Source of the DNA: Nitrospira sp.
GTDB lineage: Bacteria; Nitrospirota; Nitrospiria; Nitrospirales; Nitrospiraceae
Assembly (NCBI GenBank): GCA_030123625.1
Contig: CP126121.1
Coordinates: 3,636,179-3,700,178, forward strand
Reading direction: 5' to 3'
DNA: 64,000 nt
Positions 52,248 to 52,745 of the stretch are shown piece by piece; position 1 is the first letter of the stretch; each line of letters starts with the position of its first letter. Below the pieces are notes generated by a model. The model saw only the letters and a list, made by a program, of their open reading frames with translations. It was not told the origin of the DNA and searched no databases. The translations under genes were made by a program, and so were the position numbers.

Positions 52248-52324
52248 CGGGGCGTAGCGCAGCCCGGTAGCGCGCCTGCTTTGGGAGCAGGATGTCGGAG
52301 GTTCAAATCCTCTCGCCCCGACCA
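52248..52324 (+). tRNA. tRNA-Pro (UGG), CCA encoded
   Basis: A complete cloverleaf is readable: acceptor CGGGGCG/CGCCCCG, D-arm GCGC...GCGC, anticodon stem CCTGC/GCAGG with loop TTTGGGA (anticodon TGG), T-arm GGAGG-TTCAAAT-CCTCT and discriminator A with CCA at 52322-52324. The gene is 77 bases. The CCA runs directly into the first unit of a tandem repeat array. Confidence 0.97.
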
Positions 52325-52745
52325 AACCGCACTTCGTGCGTACCGCGTGCTATTCATCGTCCTATCGTAACTGTTGCACGCGGATAGATCCCTCCAGTAA
52401 TCCTCATCCCTCTATTACCATACAGAGCTTGCTCGGCCCGGAGCCTATTTCTTCCATTGAGGCGACGGGATAAAACCCACCAGGGATCTTGATTACCAAA
52501 GCTTGCTCGTGCCGGCGGCTGTTTATCGTCTTATCGCAATTACCGCCGGCGGATAAACTCCACAAGTAATCTCCGCTCTCTGTACCAAACCACACTTCGT
52601 GCGTACCGCGTGCTATTCATCGCCCTATCGTAACTGTTGCACGCGGATAGACCCCTCCAGTAATCTTTGTCTTTCTACCAAACCAAGCTTGCTCGTGCCG
52701 CCGGCTCTTCATCGTTGTATCGTCATTGACCACCAAGGGGTCACC
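52321..52745 (+). repeat. Five tandem hairpin units after tRNA-Pro
   Basis: Units begin at 52321, 52417, 52495, 52584 and 52677, each with ACCA(A)A-like sequence identical to the tRNA 3' end. Each has a short hairpin (CAC-TTC-GTG or AGC-TT-GCT) and a longer one. The longer stem is CCGCGTGC/GCACGCGG in units 1 and 4, CCGGCGG/CCGCCGG in unit 3 and CCCGGAGCC/GGCGACGGG (with a GA/GA mismatch) in unit 2. Units 1 and 4 are nearly identical. Unit 5 lacks the right arm and runs into a terminator-like hairpin. Unit lengths are 96, 78, 89 and 93 bases. Confidence 0.85.

Follow-up and report, generated by a model that had tools for sequence, protein, structure and literature searches.

Structurally covarying hairpin repeats at tRNA gene ends in the Nitrospiraceae, exemplified by an array behind tRNA-Pro(TGG)

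The window analyzed here, a 64,000-nucleotide stretch of Nitrospira sp. contig CP126121.1, contains a tRNA-Pro(TGG) gene whose encoded CCA end runs into an array of repeat copies (Table 1). Directly upstream of the tRNA gene lie the genes for RNase PH, a tRNA 3'-end exonuclease, and for a Ham1-family protein. Downstream of the array, three tiny single-span membrane peptides are encoded in tandem on the opposite strand (MMSDEIAMLTISGAIFFAVLMLAMFMRKA, MGMRGELTLLAIWIVIYIVIMMLAMLFTAVGLHMSR and MMSDLTMLTISVAINIAIIMLAMLLRDT). The first of these has no Pfam match; by reading, several relatives also have sequence resembling the three on the 3' side of the array. No promoter- or terminator-like site is predicted between 52130 and 52850, and tRNA is the sole Rfam family matched between 51900 and 53400 at E values up to 5.

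Table 1. Features of the tRNA-Pro(TGG) locus in window coordinates; fold z compares each unit with shuffled sequence, R1 is the covariance model described in the text, and G000 is the genome from which the window was taken.
Feature	Coordinates	Strand	Structure	Support
RNase PH gene	50542-51318	+		
Ham1-family gene	51501-52124	+		
tRNA-Pro(TGG) gene, anchor of the array	52248..52324	+	CCA encoded	ARAGORN; Rfam RF00005, 67.4 bits
Unit 1 (type I)	52321..52416	+	small hairpin 52328-52340; main stem CCGCGTGC/GCACGCGG, 52343-52350 with 52376-52383; tail GATAGATCCCTCCAGT	R1, 96.1 bits in own genome; fold z -3.41
Unit 2 (type II)	52417..52494	+	CCCG-GA-GCC, 52437-52445, with GGC-GA-CGGG, 52461-52469; tandem G.A internal loop	R1, 31.5 bits; fold z -0.44; GA/GA census
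Unit 3 (type I)	52495..52583	+	GCCGGCGG, 52511-52518, with CCGCCGGC, 52543-52550	R1, 61.5 bits; fold z -1.50
Unit 4 (type I)	52584..52676	+	52606-52613 with 52639-52646; stem identical to that of unit 1	R1, 94.7 bits; fold z -1.78; 91% identity to unit 1 over 94 nt
Unit 5, truncated	52677..about 52730	+	first hairpin and 5' arm (CCGCCGGC) only	R1, 42 bits over 3688855-3688932 of G000; fold z 0.32
Membrane peptide	52801-52890	-		
Membrane peptide	53030-53140	-		
Membrane peptide	53181-53270	-		

The repeat measures 74-95 nt, with start-to-start spacings of 95, 74, 94 and 92 among its five copies, and ACCA stands at every unit boundary, as an earlier note on this sequence had observed. The same note described five tandem units with covarying stems. 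Five copies do follow the tRNA, but only four hold hairpins; unit 5 lacks the 3' arm of the main stem and folds no better than shuffled sequence. The stems quoted in the note are all in the sequence, CCGGCGG/CCGCCGG falling in unit 3. However, the stem of unit 4 repeats that of unit 1 and therefore contributes no independent change, so that with one near copy and one truncated copy the array offers three distinct stems in four complete units. The blank result of Tandem Repeats Finder, which gives no row at the array even at score 30, indicates that the array has diverged. As a whole, the array folds with a z of -2.25, and none of 100 shuffled sequences is equally stable. Compensatory change within the array had been put forward as good evidence for selection on structure; taken alone, the tRNA-Pro array is moderate evidence, and the case is therefore built from relatives, in which 35 aligned units of the wider family provide strong evidence.

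DNA searches place the same repeat unit behind other tRNAs in this genome and in its relatives. The covariance model R1 was built from 35 units and searched over the Nitrospirota, a check that the earlier note had proposed with a model of the five array units. It has matches in all 79 genomes of the genus Nitrospira and, within a phylum sample of 245 genomes, in 60 of the 62 from the same family and in none of the remaining 183, of which 165 were placed outside the family by the kinship order of the list. The genome of origin alone has 30 matches at E 0.1 or better (32 at E 1 or better), and when the 330 bases after each tRNA are read, units are found behind 12 of 44 tRNAs: Pro-TGG, Pro-CGG, Arg-TCT, Arg-CCT, Gly-CCC, Ser-GGA, Ser-CGA, Cys, Ala-GGC, Thr-GGT, Trp and Glu-CTC. 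At Pro-CGG and Ser-CGA, another insert separates the tRNA from the unit. Rfam searches of seven unit loci in this genome return one tRNA and nothing else. A scan of named genomes for the type II pattern yields 32 stretches, 29 titled Nitrospira or Nitrospiraceae, two titled Nitrosospira, both from one assembly, and one titled Peribacteraceae; the family occurs in named species such as N. moscoviensis and N. defluvii. Phage and plasmid collections contain no unit match. Viral contigs give none for the type II pattern and a single match for a type I 19-mer, on a contig that ends in a tRNA fragment and a unit. In the literature covered, which includes the available parts of PMC12306157, PMC8144298, PMC4986893 and PMC3733652 and leaves aside most subscription journals, no description was recognized as this repeat family; the available part of PMC12306157 names N. 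moscoviensis in a table and has nothing on tRNA ends. The tRNA-Pro array is one example of a family-wide repeat, not a local oddity.

Each unit comprises a core of about 75-80 nt with two conserved hairpins. The first hairpin, of 5 bp with a UUC/UUG loop, directly follows CCAAACC, and the main stem, of 8 bp, opens with CCG and closes with CGG and is followed on its 3' side by a conserved unpaired tail, GATAAA..CC..CAGT. Across the 35 aligned units, 90.8% of cells are paired, compared with 76.2% after shuffling and at most 45.2% after sliding. The covariation score is 0.386 versus 0.138 for shuffled alignments, with 74 versus 28.0 cells changed on both sides. The type II hairpin takes the form CCCG-GA-GCC/GGC-GA-CGGG. 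Over 993366 bases of loci, overlaps included, a census of the distinct 4bp-2x2-3bp hairpins before ATA finds GA/GA as the 2x2 mismatch in 42 of 73, the next-best mismatch occurring in 2. As GA/GA spans five stem combinations, the G.A tandem is kept while the surrounding pairs change. A third unit type carries a nested hairpin inside the loop. A pseudoknot between loop and tail is unsupported, the mean complementary run being 4.56 versus 4.45 after re-pairing. These comparisons support a structural constraint that reaches far beyond the tRNA-Pro array. A free-standing type II form is also seen at the center of long inverted repeats (L026, L030, L271, L283, L284, L288, L297 and others). The outer arms of these repeats are different at each locus, which looks as though every insertion had either landed in a palindrome or made one.

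Functional RNAs often show features such as the retained G.A tandem and the conserved single-stranded tail, and on account of these two some probability stays with the reading that the units are tRNA 3' trailers, guiding or delaying 3' maturation or releasing small RNAs, with hairpins selected as RNA. The strong covariation fits this reading, as do the orientation of the units, which is that of the tRNA at all 41 adjacent sites, and the recurrence of units at several of the same tRNAs in several species. We nevertheless regard it as unlikely. By reading, units stand behind only the 12 tRNAs listed above, orthologous units have been lost, replaced or left unpaired, and copies occur on antisense tRNA-Ser, at tRNA fragments and at non-tRNA sites. 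The blank promoter, terminator and Rfam results at the tRNA-Pro array also stand against it, and the present analysis yields no evidence for the processing signal or small-RNA source that the earlier note had suggested. Furthermore, G.U is no commoner than A.C in the main stem, each accounting for 28 of 826 cells in 105 of 118 distinct rows, the 13 type II rows having been dropped as unsuited to the alignment. In the control, the acceptor stems of CCA-ending tRNAs among 68 distinct tRNAs, G.U occurs 7 times and A.C once. Equal numbers are expected if pairing matters as DNA or only at copying; the test is a weak one, as a 1:1 ratio is also what decayed copies would drift toward, and the control holds only 8 non-Watson-Crick cells.

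The register of units next to tRNA genes is exact. In four genomes (G000, G012, G060 and G090), 41 of 117 units abut an intact tRNA gene, all 41 at offset 0, in register on the discriminator base and CCA; another 29 lie within 600 nt downstream of a tRNA and 47 lie farther away. The 117 comprise 30 of 32 matches from the genome of origin and 87 of 97 from the other three, the weakest having been dropped, and were compared with 44 of 45 and 139 of 140 tRNA rows, respectively. In the fetched loci, likewise, all 52 units that lie no more than 8 nt from the 3' end of a tRNA or tmRNA are at offset 0. Several isotypes carry units, and so do intact tmRNA genes; Rfam identifies tmRNA in three of four loci checked. 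Among 20 stretches with far or odd units, labeled by eye (the label of L179 being weak), 10 units follow a tRNA 3' fragment, two follow tmRNA (confirmed by Rfam), one follows a weakly tmRNA-like sequence and one follows an intact tRNA-Leu. Three others start at the reverse complement of the tRNA-Ser 5' end (..CCCCTCCA), and three (L167, L180 and L183) follow nothing tRNA-like. Copies in the genome of origin that have no tRNA neighbor are found at L115, L116, L117, L125 and L132. The antisense units read away from tRNA-Ser, starting at that end, and processing of the sense tRNA is therefore no explanation for them; they may go back to one ancestral event.

By reading, some units separate tRNA-Thr from a tuf-like gene and tRNA-Trp from a secE-like gene, placements that argue against simple terminators. 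An intrinsic terminator, with a GC hairpin and a T run, was rejected for the tRNA-Pro array, where terminator-like sites are lacking. Downstream of tRNA-Glu(CTC), two units enclose a PIN-domain toxin-like gene (L192, G000 2528800-2531800), which has an AbrB-like start upstream of it by reading. At some tRNAs, a second element family separates the gene from a duplicated tRNA 3' end (L077 386-700, L098 about 600-1017, L103 about 910-1049, L059 81-215, and L225 after tRNA-Ser(GGA)). On its left, the T-arm region is repeated in inverted orientation, and on its right stands a direct copy with CCA at the end; several members have a GC-rich core (GTGGGGAGC..GAGGGGGCTGGCCCCCTC). This second family is closer in likeness to the E. 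coli tRNA-linked repeats than the hairpin units are.

There is turnover at orthologous tRNAs, which in the four species compared carry units of different types, in different numbers, decayed or not at all. Relatives without pairing, which the earlier note had set against selection on structure, do occur at individual tRNAs, stems being judged by reading. The unit at tRNA-Ser(GGA) is a paired type I in G000 and G090, unpaired in G012 and of type II in G060; tRNA-Thr(GGT) has two units in G000, three in G012, one decayed unit in G090 and none in G060; and tRNA-Arg(CCT) has no unit in G090. Pairing follows a gradient. All eight pairs of the main stem are Watson-Crick in 31 of 44 tRNA-adjacent units of types I and III versus 16 of 40 downstream units (permutation p about 0.001; type II excluded), in loci picked by model similarity, which may favor well-paired units.

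The growth and loss of arrays resemble direct-repeat recombination. The units could accordingly be passive, multiplied by unequal recombination at tRNA ends and gene conversion between tRNA loci, with pairing kept by quasi-palindrome (template-switch) repair, a process that the missing G.U preference would fit. A tandemly duplicated 221-bp block of a tRNA fragment and two units in G090 (L166, 3993300-3994300), about 19 kb behind tRNA-Arg(ACG) and apparently at the far end of an island, points the same way. This origin is quite improbable, given that the same register recurs behind unrelated tRNAs, tmRNA and antisense tRNA-Ser, which have little in common beyond NCCA, and that neither the conserved unpaired tail nor the G.A tandem is palindromic. 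A random microhomology expansion, which the earlier note had raised, is opposed by the genus-wide family and by the fixed register at many different tRNAs.

Islands bear on a further reading, in which the units are arms of attachment sites for tyrosine-recombinase islands that integrate at tRNA genes. Several genomes have islands between tRNAs and sequences made of a tRNA fragment and a unit, some fetched stretches contain phage-integrase genes or pieces of them (L188 and L191), and the viral contig mentioned above ends in just such a sequence. The comparison of near relatives speaks differently. In G091, a unit directly follows tRNA-Arg(TCT), whereas in G090 the tRNA is followed by a 2.4-kb insert and then by a tRNA fragment and the same unit as in G091. 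The island entered the tRNA itself, not the unit, which was pushed away; the integration hotspot suggested earlier thus holds for the tRNA gene and not for the repeat. In addition, several unit-free tRNAs of the genome of origin precede integrase-like sequence by reading, and a single structural family is shared by about a dozen different tRNAs of one genome. A role as attachment arms is therefore very unlikely. This island is the only clear difference between near relatives, and no unit insertion with clean flanks on both sides was caught among the compared genomes. Where G000 and G090 differ at tRNA-Ala, deletion between direct repeats is an equally good account.

On balance, we lean toward the reading that the array consists of stacked copies of a non-coding hairpin repeat that targets NCCA ends and spreads, probably as DNA, both inside a Nitrospiraceae genome and from one genome to another. 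This reading draws on the family with its limited lineage range, the fixed register, the covarying stems and retained G.A tandem, the turnover at orthologous tRNAs and the gradient in pairing. The repeat would land at, or be copied to, sequences that terminate in NCCA, chiefly the 3' ends of tRNA and tmRNA genes, with each copy encoding a small triloop hairpin followed by a larger one. The machinery that moves it presumably recognizes a folded single strand, which would account for a shape that is kept despite sequence change. New copies would arise beside the tRNA and push older ones outward, where they would decay, giving rise to arrays. Two candidate movers were rejected. The Y1 transposase (RAYT-type, PF01797) is absent from three of eight unit-bearing genomes (G060, G090 and G299) and present in five, and reverse transcriptase (RVT_1, PF00078) is absent from six of seven. 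It is possible, though rather doubtful, that the units represent a new mobile class, inserted as folded single-stranded DNA right after an exposed single-stranded NCCA end through an enzyme other than a Y1 transposase or a reverse transcriptase. Folding of a gene strand as a cloverleaf would expose the NCCA, the strand being that of a tRNA or tmRNA gene or, at tRNA-Ser, the complementary one.

Phages and islands classically dock at bacterial tRNA ends. Across a whole family of nitrifiers, the same ends are used by a non-coding repeat family, in fixed register and with a covarying structure and a tandem G.A. If the units are mobile, they would embody an unknown way of recognizing the CCA ends of folded genes; if they act as RNA, about a quarter of the tRNA genes in one genome would be linked to a structured RNA not described before. 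Either possibility is easily tested, since the family is present in N. moscoviensis and N. defluvii.

The units share features with three known systems. In the attC sites of integrons, structure is kept more than sequence and tandem arrays are formed; the Nitrospira units recall them in both respects and in the PIN-domain gene between two units at tRNA-Glu, but unlike integrons, most of the unit arrays read hold no genes between units. REP elements are described, in the available part of PMC3733652, as small palindromic families with unpaired conserved flanks, hypothesized to be miniature transposons. The Nitrospira units are similarly a palindromic family with many copies per genome, as the 30 matches in the genome of origin illustrate. 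They differ from REP elements and their RAYT partners in being sited at tRNA ends, in having the first hairpin and the conserved tail, and in the absence of Y1_Tnp from three of eight unit-bearing genomes; with the RAYT partner test failed, membership in the RAYT-linked REP elements was rejected. The E. coli tRNA-linked repeats (TLRs) are, according to the available part of PMC8144298, short repeats of unclear function, one to five per locus, that directly follow stable-RNA genes; their last 18-19 bp duplicate the 3' end of the gene upstream. The earlier note had likened the array to the tyrT (rtT) repeats, and the likeness holds for position, directly downstream of tRNA genes at offset 0. What defines those repeats, the 18-19 bp copy of the tRNA end, is missing here, however, and no RtT-type Rfam match was obtained, for which reasons membership was rejected here as well. 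Instead, the suffix in common with tRNA-Pro is the 4-nt ACCA at all four boundaries, and the units have a different, covarying two-hairpin structure.
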